Positions 9,248-64,000 of a DNA stretch of 64,000 bases are shown in pieces. The DNA lies in contig NZ_VFQE01000001.1 in NCBI RefSeq assembly GCF_006717095.1, forward strand, positions 3,534,001 to 3,598,000. The letters run 5' to 3'. Every line of letters begins with the position of its first letter. Within the stretch, counting starts at the first letter, position 1. Below the pieces are notes generated by a model. The model did not search any database. It saw nothing but the letters and a program-made list of their open reading frames with translations, and had not been told where the DNA came from. A program made the translations under genes and the position numbers. Origin of the DNA: Blastococcus colisei. Lineage in GTDB: Bacteria > Actinomycetota > Actinomycetes > Mycobacteriales > Geodermatophilaceae.

Positions 9248-9919
9248 GTGGCGGTGCTGGGGGTCGACGGGTGGCGGGGGTCCTGGGTCGGCGCCCGGTT
9301 GGAGGGCCGCTCGGTCACGCTGCTCGCGCTGGAGGACGTCGCCGCGGTGCTCGCCGTCCCGGACGTCGAACTGATCGCCATCGACATGCCGATCGGCCTC
9401 TCCGACGACGGCGTGCGCGCCTGCGACGTCGCGGCGCGCAGGCTGCTGGGTCCGCTGAGCAGCTCGGTCTTCCCGACGCCGGTCCGCGCGGTGCTCGCCA
9501 CCGACGACTACGCCGAGGCCCGTGCCATCTCGCGGGCGCGCACCGACCCGCCGCGGGCGCCCTCGGCCCAGGCCTTCCAGCTCGTGAAGTCGATCCGGGC
9601 ACTGGACGACGCCCTGGGCGAGCCACCGACCGATCGGGTGGTGGAGGTGCACCCCGAGCTGGCGTTCCGCGCGCTGTCGGACGGGGTGCGTGACCGGAAG
9701 GGTTCCGCTCGCGGAACCGTGCAGCGACTGCAGGCGCTGCGCCCGGTCATGGACGTCGAGGCGGCGCTGCTCGGGGCGCCGGTGGGCGTGCCGGTCATCG
9801 ACGCGCTGGACGCGTGCGCCGCGGCGTGGTCGGCCGCCCGCCTGGCACGTGGCGACGGCGAGTGTGTCGGGGACGGCGCCGTCGACAGCCGCGGCCGCCC
9901 GATGCGGATCTGCTGGTAA
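9248..9919 (+). CDS. DUF429 domain protein
   Basis: A 223-residue protein of the DUF429 family, which has an RNase-H/actin-like fold. The N-terminal GVDGWRGSWVGA and the following AIDMPIGL are typical of the family, as is VVEVHPELAF near residue 138. The biochemical role is not known. The start is GTG at 9248, 26 bp from the divergent rpiB start, so the two promoters must overlap. It ends at a strong hairpin shared with the convergent SDR gene. Confidence 0.8.
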   Translation: MAVLGVDGWRGSWVGARLEGRSVTLLALEDVAAVLAVPDVELIAIDMPIGLSDDGVRACDVAARRLLGPLSSSVFPTPVRAVLATDDYAEARAISRARTDPPRAPSAQAFQLVKSIRALDDALGEPPTDRVVEVHPELAFRALSDGVRDRKGSARGTVQRLQALRPVMDVEAALLGAPVGVPVIDALDACAAAWSAARLARGDGECVGDGAVDSRGRPMRICW

Positions 9920-9980
9920 CGGACGGCCTCCGATCCTCGGGATCCGGTGAGCGTCCCGACTGTGTACCTACGGGTCGACC

Positions 9981-10034
9981 CGGGCCGTGCAGGGTTGAGC
10001 CGCGTCAGCCCGCGGCTCAACCCTGCGCGGCCCG
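9981..10034. terminator. long perfect hairpin between convergent genes
   Basis: Arms 9989-10004 and 10011-10026 are exact reverse complements (16 bp) with a 6-nt loop. The stem extends outward by eight more pairs including one G-T, giving about 24 bp. It lies between the DUF429 stop and the SDR stop. There is no U-tract, as is usual in high-GC actinobacteria. Likely a bidirectional terminator. Confidence 0.7.
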
Positions 10035-10048
10035 GCTCGACGTTCCCC

Positions 10049-10810
10049 TCAGGAACCGGTGAGGCGGCGGACCACCGAGAGCGGCAGCACGCGCAGCAGC
10101 CGCGCGATCGGCGTCCACGGCCACCCGGGGACGTAGGCCTTGGCGGGCTCGCGCTCGATCGCCGCGGTCAGCGCATCGACACCCGTGTCGAGGTCGACGG
10201 TGAACGGACCGCGCCGGCCGACGTTGATGTCGGTGGCGATGTAGCCGGGCAGGATCGTCGTCACGACGATGCCGCTCCCCCACACGTCGGAGCGGATCCC
10301 CTCGGCGAGGGCGTTGACCGCGGCCTTGCTGGCGCCGTACGCCGTCCGGGTGCCCGGCATGCCCCGGACGGAGGCCACGGAGGAGATCAGCACCAGGTGG
10401 CCCGCGCCCTGGGCGCGGAAGACCTCCATGGCGGCCTCGCACTGGGCGTGGGCCCCGAGGACGTTCGTGTGCAGGACGGCCCGGTTCGCTCCCGCCTTGC
10501 CGGTGCCGATCGAGGCGCCCTTCCCGATGCCGGCGTTGACGATCACGCGGTCGAGGCCGCCCAGCTCGGTGGCGAGGGCCGGGATCACCCGGGCCACGGT
10601 CTCGGGATCGTCGACGTCGAGCGCCGCCGTCGTCACCCGGATGCCGGGGTGCGCGGCGAGCAGCTCCTTCTTCAGCGACTCGAGCAGCTCGGTGCGTCGG
10701 GCGACGAGCGCCAGGTCGCGGCCCATGGCGGCGAACCGGCGGGCCATGCCCTCGCCGAGGCCGGAGCTCGCGCCGGTGATGAGGATGCGCTGACGGGCGG
10801 GGTTCGGCAC
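10049..10810 (-). CDS. short-chain dehydrogenase/reductase (SDR)
   Basis: Classical SDR of 253 residues. It has the NAD(P)-binding motif TGASSGLG near the N-terminus, a following Arg pair (VARRTE) that suggests NADP(H), NAG at IVNAGIG, the catalytic Ser in ISSVAS and the YGASK motif. The substrate is not predictable from sequence. The GTG at 10810 is chosen because the first Rossmann strand starts ten residues later; the open frame extends upstream but into the divergent MFS gene. It is convergent with the DUF429 gene. Confidence 0.85.
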   Translation of the reverse strand: MPNPARQRILITGASSGLGEGMARRFAAMGRDLALVARRTELLESLKKELLAAHPGIRVTTAALDVDDPETVARVIPALATELGGLDRVIVNAGIGKGASIGTGKAGANRAVLHTNVLGAHAQCEAAMEVFRAQGAGHLVLISSVASVRGMPGTRTAYGASKAAVNALAEGIRSDVWGSGIVVTTILPGYIATDINVGRRGPFTVDLDTGVDALTAAIEREPAKAYVPGWPWTPIARLLRVLPLSVVRRLTGS

Positions 10811-51128: not shown

Positions 51129-51281
51129 CGGAACACCCCGCCAGACTCGCAGCCATCGTTGGCAACGTCCGAGATTCTCGGACAGCCGAGCCTCCCGAGT
51201 CCTGCCATCCTCTCTTCGACGGCGCAACGTTGGCCGGTACTCGATGTGCAGGGCTCGGCGGATCACGACAGAGGAGGTCGC

Positions 51282-52916
51282 ATGAGCACGACGGCGGGGG
51301 GAGCCACGGAGCAGGCTGACGAGGAGCGCCGCCGCGGCGGTTTCAGCTCCCGGCGCGTCTTCATCCTGGCGGCGATCGGGTCGGCTGTCGGACTCGGCAA
51401 CATCTGGCGGTTTCCCTACGTCGCCTACGAGAACGGCGGCGGCGCCTTCGTGGTGCCCTACCTGGTCGCACTGCTGACCGCCGGCATCCCGTTCCTGCTG
51501 CTCGACTACGCGATCGGCCACCGCCACCGCGGCTCCGCGCCGCTCTCCTTCGCCCGGCTGCGCCGCGGCACCGAGGGGTTCGGCTGGTGGCAGGTGGCCA
51601 TCTGCGCCGTCATCGCCGTCTACTACGCCGCGGTGCTGGCCTGGGCGCTGCGCTACACGTTCTTCTCGCTCGACGAGGCGTGGGGCGCCGACCCCGAAGG
51701 GTTCTTCTTCGGCGAGTTCCTCCAGGCCGGTGACGTCGAGGTCACCGCCGACGTGGTGCCCGGGGTGCTCGTCCCCCTCCTGGTCGTCTGGCTGGCCGTA
51801 CTCGTGATCATGGCCCTCGGCGTCCAGCGCGGGATCGGTGCGACCTCGCTGATCTTCATCCCGGTGCTGGTGCTCGCCTTCGCCGTCCTCGTGGTGCAGG
51901 CGCTGCTGCTGCCGGGCGCAGGAGCCGGCCTCGACGCGCTGTTCACGCCCGACTGGTCGGCGCTCACCTCGGCCTCGGTCTGGGCCGCCGCGTTCGGCCA
52001 GATCTTCTTCTCCCTGTCGATCGGCTTCGGCATCATGATCACGTACGCCTCGTACGTCCGCCGCCGCGAGGACATGATCGGCTCCGGCCTCGTCGTCGGC
52101 TTCTCGAACTCCAGTTTCGAGCTGCTCGCCGGCATCGGCGTCTTCGCCGCCCTCGGCTTCATGGCCCAGTCCGGCGGGGTCGCGGTGGGCGAGGTCGCCA
52201 GCGACGGGATCGGGCTGGCCTTCATCGCCTTCCCGACGATCATCAGCGAGGCCCCGGCCGGTGCCCTCATCGGCGTCCTGTTCTTCGGGTCGCTGGTCAT
52301 CGCCGGCATCACCTCGCTGATCAGTGTCATCGAGGTCGTGATCTCCGCCGTCCGCGACAAGCTCGACACCAGCCGGCTCACCGCGACCCTCGCGGTCGTC
52401 GTTCCCACCGCGGTGCTGAGCCTGGTGCTCTTCAGCACGACGAGCGGCATCTACGTGCTCGACGTCGTCGACCACTTCGTCAACCAGTACGGCATCCTCG
52501 TCGTGGCGCTGCTGAGCATGCTGGTCGTCGCGTGGGTGCTCCGGGCCCTGCCCAGGCTCGGCGAGCACCTCAACGTCCACGGCCGGCCCCGGGTCGGCAC
52601 CGGCTGGCGGGTGCTGACGAGCGTCGTCGCCCCCACGGCCTTGGCCGTCGTGCTCGTCCTCGCGGTGCGGGACGACCTCGCCGCGCCGTACGGGGACTAC
52701 CCCGGCTGGCTGCTGCTGATCTTCGGCTGGCTGATGGTCGTGGCGCTGCCGCTGATCGGCTTCCTGCTCGCCCGGCTGAAGTGGCGCGCCGGCACCCACC
52801 TGGACGGGCCGCCACCCGGCTCCGACCCGGCGGCGCCGTTGCACGCCACCAGCCCGACGGACCGGACCCTCCGGAACCGGCCGGTGAGCGGGCACGACGA
52901 GGGAGGACCCCGATGA
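51282..52916 (+). CDS. metP: sodium-dependent amino-acid importer (NSS family, MetP-like)
   Basis: Neurotransmitter:sodium symporter-type transporter of 544 residues with about 12 helices. The Na+/substrate site region GSAVGLGNIWRFPYVAYENGGGAF is near the N-terminus, and GQIFFSLSIGFGIMITYASY is helix 6-like. A directly following tiny membrane gene (metS) marks it as the large subunit of a MetPS-type methionine/alanine importer. ATG at 51282 follows GAGGAGG. The stop overlaps the metS start (ATGA). Confidence 0.9.
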   Translation: MSTTAGGATEQADEERRRGGFSSRRVFILAAIGSAVGLGNIWRFPYVAYENGGGAFVVPYLVALLTAGIPFLLLDYAIGHRHRGSAPLSFARLRRGTEGFGWWQVAICAVIAVYYAAVLAWALRYTFFSLDEAWGADPEGFFFGEFLQAGDVEVTADVVPGVLVPLLVVWLAVLVIMALGVQRGIGATSLIFIPVLVLAFAVLVVQALLLPGAGAGLDALFTPDWSALTSASVWAAAFGQIFFSLSIGFGIMITYASYVRRREDMIGSGLVVGFSNSSFELLAGIGVFAALGFMAQSGGVAVGEVASDGIGLAFIAFPTIISEAPAGALIGVLFFGSLVIAGITSLISVIEVVISAVRDKLDTSRLTATLAVVVPTAVLSLVLFSTTSGIYVLDVVDHFVNQYGILVVALLSMLVVAWVLRALPRLGEHLNVHGRPRVGTGWRVLTSVVAPTALAVVLVLAVRDDLAAPYGDYPGWLLLIFGWLMVVALPLIGFLLARLKWRAGTHLDGPPPGSDPAAPLHATSPTDRTLRNRPVSGHDEGGPR

Positions 52917-53192: not shown

Positions 53193-55796
53193 ATGAGTGC
53201 CCTGCCTGCCCCGTCCGAGTCCGCCCTGCGCCGTGCGCTCACCCGCGCCGAGCGCGGGGTCACCCTCGACCCCGTCGAGGCGGAGACACTCCTGCACGCC
53301 CGCGGGCTCGGCGAGCGCGAGCCGCTGGACCGGCTGCTGACCGCCGCCGGCCGGGTGCGGGACGCCGGGCTCGCCTCCGCCGGACGCCCGGGTGTGGTGA
53401 CCTACAGCCGCAAGGTGTTCATCCCGCTCACCCACCTGTGCCGCGACCGCTGCCACTACTGCACGTTCGTCACGACGCCGGGGCAGCTGCGTGCCCAGGG
53501 GAAGGCCCCCTACCTCTCCCCCGACGAGGTGCTCGACATCGCGCGGGCGGGCGCGGCGATGGGCTGCAAGGAGGCGCTGTTCACCCTCGGCGACCGCCCC
53601 GAGGACCGCTGGCCGGTCGCGGCCGAGTGGCTGGAGGCGCACGGCTTCGACTCGACGCTGGGCTACCTGCGGGCGATGGCGATCCGCGTGCTCGAGGAGA
53701 CCGGGCTGCTCCCCCACCTCAACCCGGGCGTGCTGACCTGGGAGGAGATCCAGCGGCTCAAGCCGGTCTCCGCCTCGATGGGGATGATGCTGGAGACGAC
53801 AGCGACGCGCCTGTGGTCGGAGCCCGGCGGCCCGCACTTCGGGTCGCCGGACAAGGACCCCGCCGTCCGCCTCCGGGTGCTGGAGGACGCCGGGCGCTCC
53901 GCCGTCCCGTTCACCACCGGCGTGCTGCTCGGCATCGGCGAGGACTACGCCGAGCGGGTGGACGCCGTCGGCGCGATCCGGGCCGCAGCACTTCGGCACG
54001 GGCACGTTCAGGAGGTCATCGTCCAGAACTTCCGGGCCAAGCCGCGCACGGCGATGCAGGCGCACGACGACCTGGAGCTGCAGGAGTACGTCGCGGCCGT
54101 CGCCGTCACCCGGCTGCTGCTCGGCCCGAAGGCACGGGTGCAGGCGCCGCCCAACCTGTCGGACTCCACCGAGCTCGGGCTGCTGCTCCGCGCCGGGGTC
54201 GACGACTGGGGCGGGGTCTCACCGCTGACCCCCGACCACGTGAACCCCGAGCGCCCGTGGCCGAACATCGACAAGCTGGCGGCGCTCTCGGCCGAGGCCG
54301 GCTTCGAGCTGCGCGAGCGGCTGGCCGCCCAGCCGCCGTACGTGCGGCAGTCCGAGCCGTGGCTGGACCCGCGGGTGCGCCCGCACGTGTCCGCGCTGGC
54401 CGGTCCGGACGGGCTGGCGGTCGAGGGCCGGATCCCGGCCGGTCTGCCGTGGCAGGAACCCGACGAGGCGTGGACGTCGTCGGGGCGGGTGGACCTGCAC
54501 GTGGAGGTCGACACCGTCGGGCGCACCTCGGACCGGCGCAGCGACTTCGACGCCGTCTACGGCGACTGGTCGGAGCTGCGCTCCCGCACGGAGAGCGCCC
54601 GGGACGGGCACTCGACGGCGTTGGCCGCCGGCGACCGCGAGGTGCTGGCCGCCCTGCTGCACGCCGAACGCGACCCGGCCGGGCTCTCCGCCGCCGAGTA
54701 CCTGGCGCTCCTGGGCGCCGACGGCAGCGACCTGGAGCACCTGTGCGCCCTGGCCGACGCCGTCCGTGCCGACGTCAACGGCGACGACGTCACCTACGTG
54801 GTGAACCGGAACATCAACTTCACCAACGTCTGCTACACCGGCTGCCGGTTCTGCGCCTTCGCCCAGCGACGCACCGACGCCGACGCCTACACGCTGTCGA
54901 TGGCCCAGGTCGGCGACCGGGTCGACGAGGCGTGGGCCGCCGGGGCGACCGAGATCTGCATGCAGGGCGGCATCCACCCCGACCTGCCCGGGACGGCGTA
55001 CTTCGAGCTCGCCCGCGAGGTGAAGCAACGGCAGCCCGGCATCCACCTGCACGCGTTCTCACCCATGGAGATCGTGAACGGCGCCGCGCGGACGGGGCTG
55101 TCGTTCCGCGACTTCCTGACCGAGGCCAAGGCCGCGGGTCTGGATTCGATCCCCGGGACGGCGGCGGAAATCCTCGACGACGACGTCCGCTGGGTGCTCA
55201 CCAAGGGCAAGCTGCCGACGGCGACCTGGCTGGAGATCATCCGGACGGCGCACGAGGTCGGGATCCCGACGACGTCGACGATGATGTACGGACACGTCGA
55301 CACCCCGGCGCACTGGGTCGGGCACCTGCGCACGCTCAGCCGCCTGCAGGACGAAACGGGCGGCTTCACCGAGTTCGTGCTGCTGCCGTTCGTGCACCAC
55401 AACTCGCCGATCTACCTGGCCGGCGTCGCGCGGCCCGGGCCGACGGTGCGGGAGAACCGGGCGGTGCACGCGGTCGCGCGGCTGTTGCTTCACGGCCGGA
55501 TCCCGAACATCCAGACGTCGTGGGTGAAGCTCGCCGAGGCCGGCACCAAGGCGGTGCTGCGGGGCGGGGCCAACGACCTCGGCGGCACGCTGATGGAGGA
55601 GACGATCAGCCGGATGGCCGGCAGCGAGAACGGCTCGCTGAAGACCATCGCCGAGCTGGAGGCGATGGCCGCCGCGATCGGCCGGCCGGCCCGTCAGCGG
55701 ACGACGGAGTACGGGACCCCGTCCGCAGAGCGCCTGGCCACGGCCCGCTCCGACGAGGGCCGCCGCCGGCTCACCCTGTCGATCACGCCGTCCTGA
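53193..55796 (+). CDS. fbiC: FO synthase, fused CofG-CofH
   Basis: Makes the deazaflavin FO, the chromophore of coenzyme F420, from tyrosine and 5-amino-6-ribitylaminouracil. The 867-residue chain fuses two radical-SAM enzymes. The CofG half has CRDRCHYC starting at residue 83, and the CofH half has CYTGCRFC starting at residue 547; each is a CX3CX2C motif binding a 4Fe-4S cluster. The fused form is typical of actinobacteria. ATG at 53193. It is followed by an imperfect hairpin and a convergent FNT gene. Confidence 0.97.
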
Positions 55797-55874: not shown

Positions 55875-56723
55875 TCAGGCACGCTCGGCGGGCTCCTGGT
55901 CCGCCGCCGCGGGCTCCTCCGGCTTGTCCTTGAGGAACAGGTACCAGTAGCTCGTCGCCACGAAGATGACCGCGCCGACCAGGTTCCCCGTTCCGGCGAG
56001 CAGCCAGTTCAGCAGGGCGTCGCCCCAACCGAGATCGGGAACGCCGGCGAAGATCGCAGCCGGGATGAAGAACATGTTGGCGACCACGTGGTCGAAGCCC
56101 ATCGCGACGAACGCCATGATGGGGAAGAAGAGGGCGAGGATCTTCCCGGACACCGTCGTCGCGGCCAGCGACATCCACACCGCCAGGCAGACCAGCCAGT
56201 TGCACCCCACCCCGCGCAGGAACGTCTCCCACGCGGTGTGCCCGCCCGCCTTGCCCTGGGCGATCTCGGCCAGCCGGTCGTAGGTCAGCCCGCTGCTCCC
56301 GGTCGCGCCGGCGTCGCCGATGACCCCGGTCTGCACGGACAGGAAGTACGCCACGAACAGCGCGCCGATGAGGTTGCCGAGCAGCACCAGCGTCAGGTTC
56401 TTGGCGACGTCTCCCACGCCGATCTTGCCCCGCATCGCGCTGAGCGGGACGAGCAGCATGTTGCCGGTCGCCAGATCCGAGCCGGCGATGAGCACCAGCA
56501 CCAGGCCGAGGGTGAAGGCGATGCCGGTGAAGAGCGTCGGCAGCGTGCCCCACGTCCCGGGATCCAGCCCCGCGGAGACGGTGATCGCCACCAGCCCACC
56601 GAACGCGATGTACGCGCCGGCCAGGAAGGCACTGACCAGCACCCGGTCCCAGGTGCGCCGGGTCTTCTTGGCTCCGGTCTCTGTCGCGACCTGCGCCATC
56701 TCTGCTGGTTCACGTGCGGACAC
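55875..56723 (-). CDS. formate/nitrite transporter (FNT) family channel
   Basis: Membrane channel of 282 residues with six or seven helices. FNT features include GLVLVLIAGSDLATGNM, RGVGCNWLVCLAVWMS and the central-pore His in FDHVVANMFFIP (usually EHVVANM, here Asp before His). FNT proteins pass formate, nitrite, hydrosulfide or other small monocarboxylates. GTG at 56723 has GGGAGG upstream, better than the internal ATG at 56699. It follows the HAD gene by 71 bp in the same direction and may be the last gene of the carboxylase operon. Confidence 0.9.
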   Translation of the reverse strand: MSAREPAEMAQVATETGAKKTRRTWDRVLVSAFLAGAYIAFGGLVAITVSAGLDPGTWGTLPTLFTGIAFTLGLVLVLIAGSDLATGNMLLVPLSAMRGKIGVGDVAKNLTLVLLGNLIGALFVAYFLSVQTGVIGDAGATGSSGLTYDRLAEIAQGKAGGHTAWETFLRGVGCNWLVCLAVWMSLAATTVSGKILALFFPIMAFVAMGFDHVVANMFFIPAAIFAGVPDLGWGDALLNWLLAGTGNLVGAVIFVATSYWYLFLKDKPEEPAAADQEPAERA

Positions 56724-56794: not shown

Positions 56795-57637
56795 TCAGCT
56801 CCTGAGCAGCCGGGCCAGCTCCCCCACGTCGGCCAGGTCCAGGTGCGGGCGCACCTCGGGCGGCAGGTCGGTGTAGGACTCCGCGTGCCCGATCCCGGTG
56901 TGCACGGCCACGGCGAACGCCCCGCCGGCGTGCGCCATCGGCACCTCGAGCTCCGGGTCGTCGCCGACCACCGCCAGCTCGCCGGCCGGCACGCCCAGCC
57001 GCCGTCCCGCCGTCCGCAGAGCGCTCGGCGACGGCTTGCCGACGACGGTCACCTCGCAGCCGGTGATGTCGCGGACGACGGCGCTGATCGCCCGCGACGT
57101 CCCGAGCGACTTGCCCTCCGCCGTCGCGAAGAACTGCGACTGGGAGGCGCTGTAGAACTCCGCCCCGTCGAAGACCGCGAAGCAGGCGGCCTCCAGGGAC
57201 TCGAAGGTCAGCTCCTGCCGGTACCAGCCGGCCATCACCGCGTCGCAGTCCGTCCCCCGCAGCGGGGGCACCGTCTCGATGCCCGCCGCCTCCAGCGGCT
57301 CGGTGATGCCCTTCCCACCCAGCACCATCACCCGCCGGTGACCGCGCTCGCCGAAGACGTCCACCGCGGTGGAGGCCGGCGTCAGCGCCTGGTCGGCCGT
57401 GACCGGCAAGCCGAGTTGCTGCAGTGCGTCCGCGCACTGTGCCGGCGTCTTCACGGTGCCGTTGGTGAAGACGCAGAAGGGGATCGAGAGCTCGTGCAGG
57501 GTCTGCAGCAGCTCCAGCGCCCCCGGCAGCGGCGTCAGCCCCCGGTTGTCGCGATCGCCGAGCACCAGCGTGCCGTCCATGTCGAGGACGAAGCCGCGCA
57601 CCTGCCGCAGCCGGTCGAGGACAGCAGGGTCAGGCAA
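56795..57637 (-). CDS. HAD-IIA family hydrolase (NagD-like phosphatase)
   Basis: Haloacid-dehalogenase superfamily phosphatase of 280 residues. The nucleophile motif is FVLDMDGTLVLGD near residue 20, FTNGT is motif II, the motif III Lys is in VVGKPSP, and VVGDDPELEV is motif IV. It has the C2a-type cap of the NagD/4-nitrophenylphosphatase group. The start is probably TTG at 57637, inside the end of the carboxyltransferase gene (8-bp overlap), with GAAGGGA upstream. The coupling suggests it serves the operon, perhaps removing a phosphorylated intermediate; that is inference. Confidence 0.85.
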   Translation of the reverse strand: MPDPAVLDRLRQVRGFVLDMDGTLVLGDRDNRGLTPLPGALELLQTLHELSIPFCVFTNGTVKTPAQCADALQQLGLPVTADQALTPASTAVDVFGERGHRRVMVLGGKGITEPLEAAGIETVPPLRGTDCDAVMAGWYRQELTFESLEAACFAVFDGAEFYSASQSQFFATAEGKSLGTSRAISAVVRDITGCEVTVVGKPSPSALRTAGRRLGVPAGELAVVGDDPELEVPMAHAGGAFAVAVHTGIGHAESYTDLPPEVRPHLDLADVGELARLLRS

Positions 57638-59111
57638 CGGAGGTCCCTTCGGAGGCCCGGCCGACCGACATGCGCAGGCCCGGCGTGGTGACGGCGAGAT
57701 CGTGGACGGACGTCCGTGACCCGAGCTCGCGCAGCAGCGTGAGCACGGGCGCCAGCGAGGGGTTGAAGTGCCGGGGCGCCGGCCCGGCCGCGAGCATCGC
57801 GTCGACCTGGTCCTCGGGCATGTGCGCGCGCAGGAGCAGCTCCTCGTCGCTGATCCCTGGGCGGAACTGCCTCCGCAGCTCGGCGGGCGTCGGCGGCGGC
57901 GGCTCCGACGCGAGCTCGCGCGCCCGCGGCCGGTCGAGGATGCGGTCCTGCACGGTCGGGTCGATCGGTGCGGTGGGCCGGCCGAAGCTGCCCAGCACGT
58001 ACCGGATGACCTGGTCGGGGACGTTCGCGTACCGCTCGCCGATGACGTTGAACAGGGCCTGGGACACCACCATCTGCGGGAACGGCGTGACCATGATCGG
58101 GTGGCCCAGCTCCGCCCGGACGGCGCCCACCTCCTCTACCAGGGCCTCGAACCGGTGCTCCATGCCGATCTCGCGCAGCTGCCGCCGCGTCGTCGTCATC
58201 ACGCCGCCGGCGATCTGGTGGTGCAGGAACGCCGCGTCGAAGTCCTGCGGCCGGCCGACCGGCAGCTCCTCCGCCACCGCCAGCCCGTCGAGGAAGTCGC
58301 AGACCAGGCCCAGCGCGCGGTCGTCGACGTCCACCCGGTGGCCCATCTCCCGCAGGTTGGCCACCGTCCGCCGCGCCTCGGGCAGCGACGAGCCGTTGCC
58401 CAGCGGCCCGCTGCCCACCTGCACGACCTCGACGCCGAGCTCCGGCGCGATCGAGTAGGTGAGCGGGGAGAGGCCGATGGTCGCGTGCGAGTGCAGCTCC
58501 AGCGGCGTGCCGTCCAGCCGCCCGACGATCGCCGGCAGCAGCGTCCGGGCCCGCTCGGCGGTGAGGATCCCGGCCGGGTCCTTCACGTAGACGCGGTCGA
58601 AGTTCGGATCGGCGGCGAACTGCGCGGCCAGGTCGGCGTAGAAGGCGTCGTCGTGCACCACGCTGATCGTGAAGGTCAGCGCCCCGATCACCTCGTCGAC
58701 GCCGGCCTGTTTGAGCCGGCGCGCGGTCTCGCGGGCGGCGTCCATGTCGTGCATCGGGTCGAGGACGACGACCCGGTCGATCCCGTTGGCCACGAGCCGG
58801 TCGTAGACCAGTTGCATGGTCTCCGGGTGGGAGTTCTGCCAGCTGATGAACCGGAAGCCGGTGCCGATGAACTGCAGCTTCGTCGTCGGCATCGCCGCCC
58901 GGGTCAGCCGCAGCCGCTCCCACGGGTCCTCCCTGTGGGTGCGGACGGCGACCCCCATCGCCGTGCTGGAGCTGTAGTCCAGCGCCCGGAAGCCGACCCG
59001 CTCCATCAGCGGGGCGACCTGCGCGATGTGCGCCGTCCGCAGGCCCGTGGCACCCCACAGGCTCTGGTTCCCGTCGCGGATCGAGACGTCCACGAGTCCC
59101 ACGTCGGCCAT
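57630..59111 (-). CDS. biotin-dependent carboxyltransferase, pyruvate carboxylase/oxaloacetate decarboxylase type
   Basis: TIM-barrel carboxyltransferase of 493 residues. Metal and catalytic motifs are conserved: IRDGNQSLWGA (usual RDAHQSLLA), the carboxylated Lys in VYVKDPAGIL, and the metal His pair in LHSHAT. EDPWERLRLTRAAMP aligns with the PC/OAD family. Near the substrate, the usual GGATFD stretch is SSTAMG, so the acceptor may not be pyruvate. A C-terminal helical domain follows, with no biotin domain; that is supplied by a separate gene. ATG at 59111 overlaps the biotin carboxylase stop (TGATG). Acceptor unknown; a ketone is suggested by context. Confidence 0.88.
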   Translation of the reverse strand: MADVGLVDVSIRDGNQSLWGATGLRTAHIAQVAPLMERVGFRALDYSSSTAMGVAVRTHREDPWERLRLTRAAMPTTKLQFIGTGFRFISWQNSHPETMQLVYDRLVANGIDRVVVLDPMHDMDAARETARRLKQAGVDEVIGALTFTISVVHDDAFYADLAAQFAADPNFDRVYVKDPAGILTAERARTLLPAIVGRLDGTPLELHSHATIGLSPLTYSIAPELGVEVVQVGSGPLGNGSSLPEARRTVANLREMGHRVDVDDRALGLVCDFLDGLAVAEELPVGRPQDFDAAFLHHQIAGGVMTTTRRQLREIGMEHRFEALVEEVGAVRAELGHPIMVTPFPQMVVSQALFNVIGERYANVPDQVIRYVLGSFGRPTAPIDPTVQDRILDRPRARELASEPPPPTPAELRRQFRPGISDEELLLRAHMPEDQVDAMLAAGPAPRHFNPSLAPVLTLLRELGSRTSVHDLAVTTPGLRMSVGRASEGTSVA

Positions 59112-60475
59112 CAGCGCGCCCCCACGAGCTGGGAGTCGAGGAACCGCTCGAAGAACGTCGTGTCCACTCCTCCGGCGGCGAACTCCGGATCGGCCAGCAG
59201 CGCCCGGTGCACCGGCACCGTCGTCGTCACGCCCTCGATCCGCAGCAGGTCCAGGGCGGCACGGGCCCGGGCGACGGCGTCGTCCCGGTCGGTCCCGTGC
59301 ACGATCAGCTTGGCGAGCAGCGAGTCGTAGTACGGCGGGACGACGGAGCCGCCCTGCACGTGGGTGTCCACGCGCAGGCCTTCCCCCACCGGCAGCACCA
59401 CCCGGTGGATCCGGCCCGGCGAGGGACGGAAGCCCAGCGCCGCGTCCTCGGCGTTGATCCGGCACTCCACGGCATGCCCGGTCAGGACGACGTCCTCCTG
59501 CCGGAGCCCCAGCGGCAGGCCCTCGGCGACGGCGAGCTGCTCGGCAACCAGGTCCAGGCCGGTGACCATCTCGGTGACCGGGTGCTCGACCTGGATGCGG
59601 GCGTTCATCTCCAGGAAGTAGAAGGAGCCGCGCTCGCGGTCCACCAGCAGTTCCACGGTGCCCAGGCCGCGGTAGTGCAGGTGCTCGGCGAGGGCGAGAG
59701 CGGCGGCGGCCATCTCCGCCCGCAGGGCGTCGGGCAGCAGCGGCGCGGGCGCCTCCTCGAACAGCTTCTGGTACCGGCGCTGGACGGAGCAGTCCCGGTC
59801 CCCGAGCGCCACGGCACGCGCACCGTCGCCCAGGATCTGCACCTCGACATGTCGACCTGACGACACGAAGCGCTCCAGGTACACCCGCGGGTCGCCGAAC
59901 GCGGCGGCGGCCTCGGAGACGGCGAGGTCGAGGGTGTGCGCCAGGTCGTCCGGGCCGGCGACGAGCTTCATGCCGCGGCCGCCGCCACCACCGACGGCCT
60001 TCACCAGCAGCGGGTAGCCGACCTCGGCCGCCACCTCCTGCGCCCCGGCCAGGTCGGCGGCCTCGCCACCGGGGACGACGGGTAGCCCGGCGGCCACCGC
60101 GTGCGAGCGGGCGGTGAGCTTGTCCCCCACCGCCTCCAGCGACTCCGGCGCCGGCCCCACGAAGACGATCCCGGCCGTCGCGCAGGCCCGGGCGAGCGAC
60201 GGGTTCTCCGACAGGAAGCCGTAGCCCGGGTGCACCGCGTCCGCCTCCACCGCCTGCGCGGCCCGCACGACGGCCGCCGGGTCGAGGTAGCTCTGCGCCG
60301 CGTTCGCCGGTCCGAGCCGGACGACGCGGTCGGCCAGCCGCGCGGGGAGCGACTCCGTGTCGGCGTCGGAGGCGGCCAGCACCGACTCGATGCCGAGTCG
60401 CCTGCAGGTCCGGATCACCCGGGCGGCGATCTCGCCCCGGTTGGCGATCAGCAGCCGGCGGATCCGTGTAGTCAT
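59111..60475 (-). CDS. biotin carboxylase subunit
   Basis: ATP-grasp biotin carboxylase of 454 residues that carboxylates biotin using ATP and bicarbonate. It starts RRLLIANRGEIAARVIRTCRRLG, has the Gly-rich loop VGGGGGRGMK, the bicarbonate region FLEMNARIQVEHPVTEM and HAVECRINAED. It resembles AccC, but its operon contains a pyruvate-type carboxyltransferase rather than AccA/AccD. The start overlaps the biotin carrier gene (ATGA) and the stop overlaps the carboxyltransferase gene. Confidence 0.93.
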   Translation of the reverse strand: MTTRIRRLLIANRGEIAARVIRTCRRLGIESVLAASDADTESLPARLADRVVRLGPANAAQSYLDPAAVVRAAQAVEADAVHPGYGFLSENPSLARACATAGIVFVGPAPESLEAVGDKLTARSHAVAAGLPVVPGGEAADLAGAQEVAAEVGYPLLVKAVGGGGGRGMKLVAGPDDLAHTLDLAVSEAAAAFGDPRVYLERFVSSGRHVEVQILGDGARAVALGDRDCSVQRRYQKLFEEAPAPLLPDALRAEMAAAALALAEHLHYRGLGTVELLVDRERGSFYFLEMNARIQVEHPVTEMVTGLDLVAEQLAVAEGLPLGLRQEDVVLTGHAVECRINAEDAALGFRPSPGRIHRVVLPVGEGLRVDTHVQGGSVVPPYYDSLLAKLIVHGTDRDDAVARARAALDLLRIEGVTTTVPVHRALLADPEFAAGGVDTTFFERFLDSQLVGAR

Positions 60476-60939
60476 GCCGGCTCCACCACCAGCAGCACCG
60501 CGTCCGCGTCGGCGAACTCGCCGTTGCCCAGCCGGAACTCGACCACGGTGCCCCGGACGCCGGCGTGCACCGGCGTCATCATCTTCATGGTCTCGACGAT
60601 CCCGACGACGGTCTCCGTGCCGACCTCGTCGCCGATGTCCACGAACGGCGGGGCGCCCGGCTGCGGCGCGCGGTAGAACGTGCCCAGCAGCGGCGGGTGC
60701 ACGGCCACCAGCCCCTCGCCGACCTCCGCGGCGGGCGCGGGCGCCTCGGCGGCGGCCGCGGGCGCGGCGGCCTGCTCCACCTGCGGCGCGCGCGTGACCT
60801 GCTGCTCGGCGGTCCAGCCGGCGGCGCCCTCCCGGCGGACGGTCAGGGTCAGGTCGGCGAGCTCCAGGTGCAGCTCCTGCAGGCCGCTGGAGTCGAGGGC
60901 CCGCAGGACGTCGCGGACGTCGTCGGGGGTCAACTCCAC
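60472..60939 (-). CDS. biotin carboxyl carrier protein
   Basis: Carrier of 155 residues. An AccB-like N-terminal helix-strand segment (VRDVLRALDSSGLQELHLELADLTL) is followed by an Ala/Pro-rich hinge (about 60-85) and the biotinyl domain with Lys in VETMKMMTPV. It shuttles carboxybiotin between the two enzymes encoded downstream. GTG at 60939 lies 9 nt after GGAGGG. The gap to the preceding ATP-binding subunit gene is only 5 bp, placing the PEP-synthase-like pair and the carboxylase in one transcript. Confidence 0.9.
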   Translation of the reverse strand: MELTPDDVRDVLRALDSSGLQELHLELADLTLTVRREGAAGWTAEQQVTRAPQVEQAAAPAAAAEAPAPAAEVGEGLVAVHPPLLGTFYRAPQPGAPPFVDIGDEVGTETVVGIVETMKMMTPVHAGVRGTVVEFRLGNGEFADADAVLLVVEPA

Positions 60940-60944
60940 GTCGC

Positions 60945-62024
60945 TCAGCCCTCCGACGGGCGCTTGCCGCCCAGCAGGTTGAAGACGTGGTCGAACGGGC
61001 GTGCGGCCGGGGCAGCCTTGGCCGCGCGGTCCTTCTCCGCCCACACCGTCTCCGGCCGGCTCTGCAGCAGGAAGACCTCGCCGGCGTCGTTCACCGCCCA
61101 CTCGATGTCCTGCGGGCAGCCGTAGTGCCCTTCGACCCGCCGCGCGACCGCCACCAGCTCGGCGATCTCGTCGTCGGAGATCGCCGGCCGGTCCTGCAGC
61201 TCGGCCGGCACGTCGGTCTCCACCACCCCGGAGCCGGACGGGTCCGGCCGGTGCCAGCGGGTCTTCGTGGCCACGGTTCGCTTCATCTTGCCGGTCACCT
61301 TGCTGACGACGAACGAGTCGGGCGTGACGTCACCACTGACGACGGCCGAGCCCAGCCCCCAGCTTGCATCGATGGCGACCACCGACTTGTCGCCGCTCCT
61401 CGGGCTGCGGGTGAACAGCACGCCGGAGCTGCGCGCGCCGACCATCCGCTGGACGACGACGGCCATCCCCAGATCGGTCTCCGGGATGCCGCGGCGCAGC
61501 CGGTAGGTCACCGACTCGACGCTGTAGAGGCTGGCCCAGCAGCGGCGCACGTGCTGCAGCACCGAGTCGGCCCCGCGCACCCACAGGTAGGTGTCCTGCA
61601 GCCCGGCGAAGCTGGCCTCGGCGCTGTCCTCGCTGGTCGCACTCGACCGCACGGCCACGGGCAACGCGGGGTCGCCGCACTCCTCGCACAGCGCCGCATA
61701 CGCCGCGGTGACCGCCTCGATGACCTCACCCGGCGGGGGCGCGGACTCCAGCACCGCCCGGATCCCGGCGGTGGCGGCAGCGAGCCCCTCGGCGTCCGCG
61801 GGATCGAGGGCGGCCACCCGGGCCGGGATCGACTCGCCGTCGACGGTCAGGTGCTCGACGGTCTGCCGGAAGGCCGCCGTCGTCACCGCGAAGCCGGTCG
61901 GCACCCGGATGCCGGCGCGCAGCAGCTCGCCGAGGCTGGCGCCCTTCCCGCCGACGGTCGCGACGTCGCCCAGGCCGACGTCGCGGAAGTGCAGGACGGA
62001 GCGGATGGCCATGAGCGTTCCCAT
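60945..62024 (-). CDS. PEP-synthase-type ATP-binding subunit (phenylphosphate synthase beta-like)
   Basis: A 359-residue protein equal to the N-terminal ATP-binding domain of PEP synthase and pyruvate phosphate dikinase. GGKGASLGELLRAGIRVPTGFAVTT opens the chain, followed by VAVRSSATSEDSAEASFAGLQ and QDIEWAVNDAGEVFLLQSRPET. It ends there, with no swivel or TIM-barrel domain. Splitting into a 359-aa ATP subunit and a 602-aa phosphohistidine subunit is the plan of phenylphosphate synthase (about 40 and 70 kDa). It would phosphorylate the partner's His with ATP. ATG at 62024 overlaps the preceding stop (TGATG); ATG at 62012 is possible. Confidence 0.85.
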   Translation of the reverse strand: MGTLMAIRSVLHFRDVGLGDVATVGGKGASLGELLRAGIRVPTGFAVTTAAFRQTVEHLTVDGESIPARVAALDPADAEGLAAATAGIRAVLESAPPPGEVIEAVTAAYAALCEECGDPALPVAVRSSATSEDSAEASFAGLQDTYLWVRGADSVLQHVRRCWASLYSVESVTYRLRRGIPETDLGMAVVVQRMVGARSSGVLFTRSPRSGDKSVVAIDASWGLGSAVVSGDVTPDSFVVSKVTGKMKRTVATKTRWHRPDPSGSGVVETDVPAELQDRPAISDDEIAELVAVARRVEGHYGCPQDIEWAVNDAGEVFLLQSRPETVWAEKDRAAKAAPAARPFDHVFNLLGGKRPSEG

Positions 62025-63832
62025 CAGCTCAGCACGGTGACGACGCCGCGGTCGCCGTCGACCCGGACGCGGTCGCCGGTCCTGATCCGGGCGGTGGCCA
62101 TGCCGGTGCCGACGACCGCCGGCATGCCGTACTCGCGGGCCACGATCGCCGCGTGCGACATCGTGCCGCCGATGTCGGAGACGGCCGCGGCGATCTTGCC
62201 GAAGACCGGGCCCCAGCTGGGGGCGGTCACCGGGCAGACGAGCACCTCGCCCTCGCGGATCTGACCGATGTCGTTGACGTTCAGCAGCACGCGAGCGACG
62301 CCTTCGACCACGCCGGGTGAGGCCGCGTAGCCGCGCACGGTCGACTCGTCGTCGTCGTCACCGCCGAGCCAGGTCTCGATCGTCTCCTGGGTGATGCCCC
62401 AGAGCATCTTCACGGCGGGGTCGTTCAGCGCCTCGGGGACGGCGCCCAGCGCGGGCGGCGGCGACCAGCCCGACAGCGCCTCGACGATCCGCTTGCGCTC
62501 GGCGACGATCGGCTGCCAGTGGCGGGCGCCGAGTTCGGTGCCGCCCGAGGCCCAGGCCAACTGGACGTCGGCGAGCGCGTCCTCGACCTCCACGTGCCGC
62601 AGGTGGAAGACGTCGTCGGCGGTCAGCAGCACGCCCCGCTCGGCCAGCAGCGCCCCGAAGGCCCGGATCTTCTGGAAGAAGCGGGTGGTGAACCAGTGCT
62701 CGCAGTAGAACTTGTGCGACTCGATGTAGGGGAACACCTGGCGGCACAGGCCCAGCATCTGGTCGAAGGCGGCCTTCTCCTCCTCGGCGTCCAGCAGGGC
62801 CCGGTACTGCCCGGCGATCCGGTCGCGCTCCTCGGCCAGGCGCTCGGTCGGGCGGGTGAGGTCCTCGCCGGCCGCGATCTGCTCGACGTAGCGCGGCAGG
62901 GCGGCGAAGGGCACGGTCAGGTCGTCGGCCCAGGACAGGTGGTGGTGGTAGAAGCCGTCACCGACCGAGACGTTGAACCACGGGTCCTTCGCCGCCTCCA
63001 GCGCGGCCAGCCAGCGGGCGCCGGCGTCCCCGCGCTCGCCGAGCGCCGCCAGCACCTTCGCCGGCTCCGCGCCCTCCACGAACAGATCCCCGAGATCGAG
63101 CTCCACGGCGAGCGCGGCGAGCTTCTTCAGCTCGTCGTCCGGCCGGTACATGGTGACGTCCATGCCGGCGACCATGCGGGCCACCATCTGGTCGCCCATC
63201 TCCGGGAAGGCCTGCTTGCAGAACTCGAAGAAGACGACGTAGGCGCCGTACCCGAGCATCAGCAGCTCGGTGTGGTGGTGCCACATCTTCGAGTACAGGT
63301 CGATGCAGCGGTGGAAGTTCTCGCGGAGGTAGTGGTTGGAGGCGATCCCGCGGCCACCCGTGACCACCTCGAGGGGGTCGAGCTCACCGAGTTCGGGCAC
63401 CTCGACGGCCTCGATGTCGGCGATCAGCGCCTCGATGCGCTGCTGCCACTCGCCGTAGATCCGGTCCCAGTTGCCGTAGTAGTGGCCGGCCCGCTCCTGG
63501 AAGGCCGCGAACCGCCTGCCCTGCTCCGCCTCGTCGAGCACCGGGTTGGCGGTGATGTAGACCCGCCCGTTGACGATGCGGTACTCGATCCCCATGGTCG
63601 TCGGGAAGGAGAACAGCCGGGCGGTGTTGGCGCCGATGGCGGTGTACGGGATCTCCGAGGTGAGGCCGTCGAAGGCCGGGATCACCTCCGGGAAGTGCAT
63701 GGAGTTGTAGAACCAGAAGCGCTGGTCGTCCTCGGGCTGGAACCGGGTGAAGTACGGGTACATCGCCTCCCAGCCCTCGGCGCCGGGGACGGCCTCGATC
63801 TGGGACGGCAGGGGGAACGATCGCTCGGGCAT
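62024..63832 (-). CDS. PEP-utilising phosphohistidine (swivel) domain protein, phenylphosphate synthase alpha-like
   Basis: A 602-residue protein. The last 90 residues are the PEP-utiliser mobile domain with the phosphorylated His in GGTMSHAAIVAREYGMPAVVGTG. The first 500 or so form a mainly helical domain of the type found in two-subunit relatives of PEP synthase, with aromatic-rich stretches (DDQRFWFYNSMHFPEVIPAFDGL, YHHHLSWADDL). It likely binds the acceptor molecule and transfers phosphate from His to it. ATG follows AGGAG, 23 bp after the ligase stop. The substrate is unknown: phenol in Thauera, perhaps a ketone enol here. Confidence 0.83.
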   Translation of the reverse strand: MPERSFPLPSQIEAVPGAEGWEAMYPYFTRFQPEDDQRFWFYNSMHFPEVIPAFDGLTSEIPYTAIGANTARLFSFPTTMGIEYRIVNGRVYITANPVLDEAEQGRRFAAFQERAGHYYGNWDRIYGEWQQRIEALIADIEAVEVPELGELDPLEVVTGGRGIASNHYLRENFHRCIDLYSKMWHHHTELLMLGYGAYVVFFEFCKQAFPEMGDQMVARMVAGMDVTMYRPDDELKKLAALAVELDLGDLFVEGAEPAKVLAALGERGDAGARWLAALEAAKDPWFNVSVGDGFYHHHLSWADDLTVPFAALPRYVEQIAAGEDLTRPTERLAEERDRIAGQYRALLDAEEEKAAFDQMLGLCRQVFPYIESHKFYCEHWFTTRFFQKIRAFGALLAERGVLLTADDVFHLRHVEVEDALADVQLAWASGGTELGARHWQPIVAERKRIVEALSGWSPPPALGAVPEALNDPAVKMLWGITQETIETWLGGDDDDESTVRGYAASPGVVEGVARVLLNVNDIGQIREGEVLVCPVTAPSWGPVFGKIAAAVSDIGGTMSHAAIVAREYGMPAVVGTGMATARIRTGDRVRVDGDRGVVTVLS

Positions 63833-63855
63833 GGTGGGCTCCTGTCGGGGCGGGG

Positions 63856-64000
63856 TCAGCGCAGCGAGTAGTCGCGCTGGGTGCGGGCGTACTCGACGAA
63901 GTCGTCCAGGGCGGTGGGATCGGCCATGGCGTCGGGGTCGGCGACGACGGCGGGGTCGGCGCCCAGGAGCAGCCGGCGGACCGGGATCTCCAGCTTCTTG
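63856..64000 (-). CDS. acetoacetyl-CoA synthetase-like ligase, C-terminus only
   Basis: Only 47 codons are in the window. The fragment starts KKLEIPVRRLLLGADP and continues DAMADPTALDDFVEYA to the stop. This matches the end of acetoacetate-CoA ligases (AMP-forming), where the A10 motif (GKxxE) is followed by a V-rich strand and a DALANPEAL-like helix. Gene length and start lie beyond the window. It is the first visible gene of the operon. Another adenylate-forming ligase cannot be excluded. Confidence 0.6.
   Translation of the reverse strand, partial: KKLEIPVRRLLLGADPAVVADPDAMADPTALDDFVEYARTQRDYSLR

Follow-up and report, generated by a model that had tools for sequence, protein, structure and literature searches.

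The hpe genes of Rhodococcus rhodochrous GD02 (hpeHICBADEF) encode a pathway for phenolic methyl ketones. The two-part dikinase HpeHI phosphorylates the phenolic hydroxyl of 4-hydroxyacetophenone and acetovanillone, the three-part biotin carboxylase HpeCBA acts on the resulting phospho-ketones, with no detectable carboxylation of the free ketones, and the HAD phosphatase HpeD dephosphorylates the carboxylated product (PMC9618137). These three steps have been demonstrated biochemically, whereas the last two were proposed, namely formation of a CoA thioester by the AMP-forming ligase HpeE and its cleavage by the CouO-type hydrolase HpeF to acetyl-CoA and hydroxybenzoate or vanillate (PMC9618137). 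Together, the eight genes support growth of another Rhodococcus on both ketones (PMC13101465). Here, we analyse a stretch of 64,000 nucleotides from Blastococcus colisei (contig NZ_VFQE01000001.1, positions 3,534,001 to 3,598,000; hereafter the window), whose right end carries on the minus strand an operon with counterparts of the kinase, carboxylase, phosphatase and ligase of this system.

Several other systems share parts of the operon. The acvABCDEF cluster of Sphingobium lignivorans SYK-6 likewise comprises six homologous, syntenous kinase, carboxylase and phosphatase genes with the last steps encoded elsewhere, although there they are performed by the non-homologous VceA/VceB (PMC9618137, PMC13101465). 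The XccABC region of Aromatoleum aromaticum EbN1 encodes a homologous 4-hydroxyacetophenone biotin carboxylase clustered with hpeHI homologues, but belongs to an anaerobic ethylphenol pathway (PMC9618137). In Novosphingobium aromaticivorans, a very similar pathway employs the single-component kinase MarK in place of HpeHI (PMC13101465). Finally, the phenylphosphate synthase PpsAB and the 4-cresol kinase CreHI belong to the same two-part dikinase family as the operon kinase. A Pps-type locus in our set (L149) has the kinase beside phenylphosphate carboxylase genes, and two loci assigned to the Cre type by a reading of their neighbours (L150, L151) have it beside P450, SDR and aldehyde dehydrogenase genes; in none of the three does it stand with a biotin carboxylase.

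Organization of the operon and comparison with GD02

The operon occupies positions 56795-63832 of the window, and its ligase gene continues past the window to 65868. The genes, in the order of transcription, and the gene that follows them are:

63856..64000 in the window (C-terminus; full gene 63856-65868, equivalent to L009:7357-9369 in the locus that extends past the window), minus strand: hpeE-like AMP-forming acyl-CoA ligase of the acetoacetyl-CoA synthetase family, 670 aa (TIGR01217)
62024..63832, minus strand: hpeH-like kinase subunit, substrate-binding and swivel domain with the catalytic His, 602 aa (Pfam PEP-utilizers, swivel motif)
60945..62024, minus strand: hpeI-like ATP-grasp kinase subunit, 359 or 355 aa depending on the start (ATG at 62024 or 62012, respectively; PPDK_N)
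60472..60939, minus strand: hpeC-like biotin carrier, ~155 aa, biotinylation motif ETMKM (TIGR00531, Biotin_lipoyl)
59111..60475, minus strand: biotin carboxylase subunit, 454 aa (Biotin_carb_N, CPSase_L_D2, Biotin_carb_C)
57630..59111, minus strand: pyruvate-carboxylase-type carboxyltransferase subunit, 493 aa (PYC_OADA)
56795..57637, minus strand: hpeD-like HAD-IIA (NagD-type) phosphatase, 280 aa, TTG start (Hydrolase_6, Hydrolase_like)
55875..56723, minus strand: formate/nitrite-family transporter, 71 bp downstream of the phosphatase gene (Form_Nir_trans, E 9.3e-76)

The preliminary description of the window had reported a tightly packed gene cluster, and this is borne out by the reading frames, all of which are intact and closely spaced. 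The ligase and H genes are 23 bp apart, H and I overlap by 1 bp or are separated by 11 bp depending on whether I starts at 62024 or 62012, and the carrier follows I after 5 bp if it starts at the GTG at 60939, a start chosen manually. Overlaps of 4 bp (carrier/carboxylase), 1 bp (carboxylase/carboxyltransferase) and 8 bp (carboxyltransferase/phosphatase) complete the series. A promoter scan upstream of the ligase gene, with a consensus poorly suited to a GC-rich actinomycete, found nothing. The gene family names first given to the cluster also agree with our family scans, in which I matches PPDK_N (E 2.7e-105), H has PEP-utilizers as its sole Pfam match, the carrier matches TIGR00531 just below the family cut-off (E 3e-32) as well as Biotin_lipoyl, and the phosphatase matches Hydrolase_6 (E 1.1e-22) and Hydrolase_like. 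Sequence past position 64000, an extension that had been suggested, completes the ligase gene, the product of which scores 794 bits against TIGR01217 (acetoacetate--CoA ligase, cut-off 520.9).

As a stand-in for GD02 we used plasmid NZ_CP113952.1 of Rhodococcus sp. JS3073 (L044), which has the GD02 order of H, I, carrier, biotin carboxylase, carboxyltransferase, phosphatase, ligase and HpeF, and whose HpeI, by a hand count over the 329 aligned residues, differs from the GD02 HpeI of structure 9GOJ (PMC12167813) at 8 positions and by one gap. Counterparts of all eight Hpe proteins are present in the Blastococcus genome, with identities to JS3073 of 49% (H), 44% (I), 40% (C), 53% (biotin carboxylase), 44% (carboxyltransferase), 35% (D), 46% (E) and 67% (F). 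A Rhizobium leguminosarum plasmid (L042) likewise encodes counterparts of all eight at 40-59% identity (H 55%, D 43%, F 59%). Table 1 of PMC9618137 labels the carboxyltransferase HpeB, whereas the masses and gene order stated in the same paper suggest that HpeB is the biotin carboxylase; these subunits are therefore named by function here. The order of the six genes from H to the phosphatase is shared with the GD02-type cluster. Unlike GD02, Blastococcus has the ligase gene first, upstream of H, has its hpeF unlinked near pob/pca genes, and has a divergent IclR-type regulator adjoining the operon; no VanA was found in its genome, and seven of the eight proteins show only 35-53% identity to those of JS3073.

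The block of H, I, carrier, carboxylase, carboxyltransferase and phosphatase genes recurs in identical order in many other genomes, so that the arrangement is beyond chance. A recurrence of the gene set had been proposed as a check on the preliminary description, and it was examined in 80 loci, the best of 441 carboxyltransferase relatives found by the peptide patterns RDGNQSLW and A[ED][LM]G[YH]PIM (six of the 80 are shared with another genome set of the analysis). At the thresholds used, HpeH and/or HpeI is encoded with the carboxyltransferase in 48 of these loci, and a phosphatase homologue is present in 72.

Proposed chemistry and substrate

Taken together, these features point to Hpe-type chemistry on a phenolic ketone, to which we assign a probability of roughly 0.9, a figure that overlaps with the case of the same mechanism acting on a different phenolic ketone. 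The substrate is most likely 4-hydroxyacetophenone, a ketone released from lignin. Each reaction below is predicted for Blastococcus from homologues of the genes and motifs observed in it. HpeI would present ATP, from which the catalytic His of HpeH would take the beta-phosphate and deliver it to the phenolic hydroxyl. The biotin carrier, biotin carboxylase and carboxyltransferase would then carboxylate the phosphorylated ketone at its methyl group, and the HAD phosphatase would strip the ring phosphate to give 4-hydroxybenzoylacetate. The acetoacetyl-CoA-synthetase-like ligase would convert this to its CoA thioester, which a CouO/HpeF-type amidohydrolase encoded elsewhere in the genome would split to acetyl-CoA and 4-hydroxybenzoate, the latter to be consumed by a PobA-like enzyme and the protocatechuate branch. 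The operon predicts in this way a testable growth substrate for Blastococcus. The cluster had at first been taken for a possibly novel operon; as the pathway was published in 2022 (PMC9618137), it is a further example of a known system with rearranged gene order.

Phenolic two-part dikinases are described with a swivel His motif T/SxxGGxxxH and a Met two residues before the His (PMC12167813). The motif of the window H, SDIGGTMSH, fits this pattern, including the Met, and is common also to the Pps and Cre kinases. In a tree of 31 hand-picked rows (the swivel motif was not seen in one hpe row, L110), 24 carboxylase-linked kinases, the window H among them, form a supported group (96/90) that is without Pps and Cre but also without the GD02-type kinase.

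The candidate gene for the cleavage step lies away from the operon. No HpeF/CouO-type hydrolase is encoded in the operon itself, unlike in GD02, and an HpeF homologue (Amidohydro_2) is found on the same contig ~1.45 Mb away (G000:C1:2139036-2139920), flanked by an acyl-CoA ligase gene and an SDR gene and with 67% identity to JS3073 and 59% to Rhizobium. About 7 kb from it lies a gene for a PobA-like 4-hydroxybenzoate hydroxylase, with pcaH, pcaB, pcaD and pcaC close by. HpeF homologues occur in all 10 operon-bearing genomes (that of Blastococcus colisei included) versus 16 of the 31 relatives in the family that lack the operon (one-sided hypergeometric 0.005, with related genomes counted as independent). 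These 41 genomes are drawn from 58 at genus and family level; of the 17 omitted, nine were <90% complete, two (G015, G049) had distant carboxyltransferases only, and G023, G025, G032, G039, G044 and G054 were left out by no set rule. VanA (PF19112) had no match in the genome in a search that was positive in 4 of 14 control genomes, which makes 4-hydroxyacetophenone a likelier substrate than acetovanillone. In the simplest reading, the operon feeds 4-hydroxybenzoate rather than vanillate into the beta-ketoadipate pathway.

The same mechanism could act on another preferred phenolic ketone, such as acetovanillone, another hydroxyacyl-benzene or an alkylphenol-derived ketone. The identity of the kinase to the GD02 type is only 44-49%, GD02 HpeHI itself accepts several phenols (PMC12167813), and in one relative (L065, described below) the carboxylase is paired with a Cre-clade kinase, so that kinases seem to have been exchanged. 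Against this stands the PobA-like gene near the HpeF homologue, and acetovanillone in particular would stall at vanillate with no VanA match in the genome, unless another demethylase exists (none was searched for). We consider a different ketone unlikely, yet the most credible of the alternatives. A narrower version applies to the ligase-first branch of Geodermatophilaceae, Streptomyces and relatives, the kinases of which are <50% identical to the GD02 type: its substrate might be a phenolic ketone that is neither 4-hydroxyacetophenone nor acetovanillone. This appears somewhat less probable again; if true, Hpe chemistry would serve for aryl methyl ketones in general, with the choice of substrate set by the kinase.

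The preliminary description had instead proposed a pathway for acetone, in which enol-phosphate formation and/or biotin-dependent carboxylation would yield acetoacetate, and then acetoacetyl-CoA would be made. What survives of that mechanism is ATP-dependent phosphorylation, biotin-dependent carboxylation of a methyl ketone and CoA ligation, which the Hpe homologues perform or are proposed to perform (PMC9618137); acetone and the enol phosphate are not supported. Acetone does share with 4-hydroxyacetophenone the methyl ketone group that is carboxylated, and the ligase falls in the acetoacetyl-CoA synthetase family. A secondary alcohol dehydrogenase had been named as a gene to look for, and a zinc-type dehydrogenase/reductase family gene does lie nearby, beyond the regulator on the opposite strand. 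The characterised two-part kinases, on the other hand, phosphorylate phenolic hydroxyls (PMC12167813), the genome has other genes that would make and use a 4-hydroxybenzoate-type product, and GD02 HpeCBA left unphosphorylated ketones without detectable carboxylation (PMC9618137). The conserved phosphatase would have no role if an enol phosphate were consumed on carboxylation, and would make sense only with a phosphate that survives that step. A second acetoacetyl-CoA synthetase, higher-scoring than the operon ligase, is encoded elsewhere in the genome. The thiolase that was to be looked for was absent from the six genes upstream to which a Pfam scan was confined, and the hydantoinase-type subunits of AcxABC were absent from the Pfam matches of the operon proteins, the only ones considered for them. 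Acetone is thus a very improbable main substrate, although it is conceivable as a weak side substrate.

A split phosphoenolpyruvate (PEP) synthase beside a split pyruvate carboxylase, serving ordinary pyruvate metabolism, is what the automatic family matches name, and the window I matches the PEP synthase structure 8A8E as well as it does the HpeI structure 9GOJ. Among the matches listed, though, H, I and the carboxyltransferase all stay below the cut-offs of the PEP synthase and pyruvate carboxylase models, and neither H nor I matched PEP_utilizers_C (Pfam, E 0.001). In place of the LLRG motif that pyruvate carboxylase shares with oxaloacetate decarboxylase (OadA), the window carboxyltransferase has IGTG, with the Arg replaced by T84. 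At this column the 80 relatives have T in 76, S in three and V in one, so that the Arg is missing in all, and R87, three residues further on, is invariant; of 12 more distant homologues, eight have R in the column of T84, with LLRG itself at least in L036 and L039. The LLRG Arg probably contacts pyruvate; among the papers listed for Arg621, none carries that term. An alignment with pyruvate carboxylase and OadA indicates that the carboxyltransferase retains K177, H207, H209 and T307, the likely catalytic residues. Conservation of R12, D13 and Q16 was built in by the search patterns, whereas T84, R87, K177, H207, H209 and T307 lie outside them. The missing LLRG Arg and the lack of a match to the PEP/pyruvate-binding C-terminal domain of PEP synthase argue against a pyruvate role. 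Pyruvate metabolism accordingly seems scarcely tenable, and the Hpe assignment corrects a tempting misreading of these genes as acetone or pyruvate metabolism.

A number of observations weigh against the assignment to Hpe-type chemistry. The match of the window I to 9GOJ (E 1.3e-72) is equalled by that to 8A8E, so that this match alone cannot separate HpeI from PEP synthase. In the kinase tree, the GD02-type kinase of L044 lies outside the group of 24, beyond a Thermomicrobium kinase (96/93) that has no linked carboxyltransferase, and is only weakly separated from Pps (80/52); the label 'hpe' requires three changes on the tree, which came with a program warning about long branches. The carboxylase-linked kinase of L065 (G041) groups with the Cre-type kinases. 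Apart from HpeF, identities are only 35-53% to JS3073 and 40-57% to the Rhizobium proteins. The ligase of JS3073 is 46% identical to the operon ligase versus 50% to the other acetoacetyl-CoA synthetase of the Blastococcus genome, and although the family matches, it is not clear that the operon ligase is the orthologue of GD02 HpeE. For comparison, the operon ligase is 63% identical to the ligase of the carboxylase cluster of P. putida YC-AE1 and 51% to that other Blastococcus synthetase. The phosphatase scores below every NCBIfam cut-off (TIGR01460, 86 bits), and the PobA-like protein passes the subfamily cut-off NF006091 but fails the equivalog TIGR02360. The separation of the H types in the kinase tree, the grouping of the L065 kinase with the Cre type and the unclear orthology of the ligase suggest that parts have been exchanged between clusters, and make 4-hydroxyacetophenone a probable rather than a settled substrate.

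Distribution and variant clusters

With a limit of at least 45% identity, carboxyltransferase relatives were found in 10 of the 98 genomes in one set and in 7 of 396 in a second, with the genome of Blastococcus colisei in both. The compact operon is found in Blastococcus, Geodermatophilus, Modestobacter, Actinomycetospora, Streptomyces and some Proteobacteria. In 2022, a complete syntenous hpe cluster was reported in only four genomes besides GD02 (PMC9618137), and a later count, quoted in PMC13101465, gave a clustered kinase and carboxylase in only 52 of 836 cases. The compact operon in these genera thus adds to a lignin-ketone pathway that has so far been counted in few genomes.

Beside the 48 loci with HpeH and/or HpeI, 22 of the 80 have a UPF0261/Tm-1-like protein gene upstream of the carboxylase, 10 have neither and none has both at the thresholds used. 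In the 62 loci whose upstream sequence extends for 6 kb or more, the counts are 40, 21, 1 and 0, respectively. A UPF0261 match counted towards 'both' from 45% identity upwards; in L122, H and I are accompanied by a weak one of 29%. The single locus with neither among the 62 is L075, which has a short HpeI match of 72%; it and L137 (UPF0261 match of 47%) were scored as 'neither' because the matches are too short. The UPF0261/Tm-1-like protein (e.g. L040:6883-8130 and L041:8972-10204) stands in place of HpeHI upstream of the carboxylase-phosphatase module, and its best solved-structure match is 9MPY. It is probably a MarK-type single-component kinase. Its standing as a new kinase type was set aside, MarK being cited as a single-component kinase in PMC13101465. 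Among the papers listed, none places UPF0261 in ketone catabolism by its title or abstract opening.

Plasmid-borne copies of the carboxylase module, with another kinase type, also occur in the bisphenol-A degrader P. putida YC-AE1 and in Sphingomonas bisphenolicum AO1, by its name presumably a bisphenol-A degrader as well. 4-Hydroxyacetophenone is an intermediate of bisphenol-A degradation.

Further variants were noted. In L065 (G041:C8:85000-104500), from a family relative, a carboxylase-phosphatase-ligase-HpeF cluster is followed by the kinase pair whose H groups with the Cre type, an apparent kinase exchange. A gene for a beta-keto acid cleavage enzyme (BKACE) lies near the carboxylase at L041:8067-8915 and in L132, L133, L135, L145 and L148; BKACE clusters without HpeE or HpeF at the thresholds used make up five of the 80 loci, and the enzyme may cleave the aroylacetate instead of the HpeE/HpeF route. 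A distant variant on plasmid pRB98 of Rhodococcus oxybenzonivorans (L043:1020-13175), with a carboxyltransferase 37% identical, is accompanied by kinase-like pieces and by genes for a thiolase and for AMP-binding, OB-fold, tyrosine-phosphatase-like and SRPBCC proteins; it possibly represents a related ketone pathway.

Flanking genes

Upstream of the operon, the regulator that was to be looked for is present as a divergent IclR-type gene (L009 ~9460-10281). Beyond it, besides the zinc-type dehydrogenase/reductase gene, lie genes for a DeoR regulator, PdxA-like, sugar-kinase-like and GntP permease proteins and an acyl-CoA dehydrogenase. The stretch L009:12151-16953 (minus strand), which encodes the DeoR regulator, the PdxA-like protein, the GntP permease and a protein whose kinase-type domains bind sugar and nucleotide, looks like a separate sugar-acid catabolic operon. 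At L009:17173-19460 (minus strand), the acyl-CoA dehydrogenase gene stands beside a frame with a biotin-carboxylase match (48% to that of the operon) and a biotin-carrier-like end, probably an unrelated acyl-CoA carboxylase.

Downstream, the formate/nitrite-family transporter was dropped as a member of the operon. It is next to D in three of 14 distinct Geodermatophilaceae genomes (20 loci, six of them duplicates of the same genomes; L072, with only 315 bases downstream, is too short to judge), and its association with the system is probably not conserved. A second transporter of the family is encoded beside the pobA-like gene (L057:8136-8927, minus strand). Further into the window, on the plus strand, are genes for a sodium:neurotransmitter symporter family protein (51159-52916) and for a radical-SAM protein with a CofH C-terminal region (53193-55796), neither with an evident link to the operon; the latter is presumably FbiC-like and involved in F420 biosynthesis.

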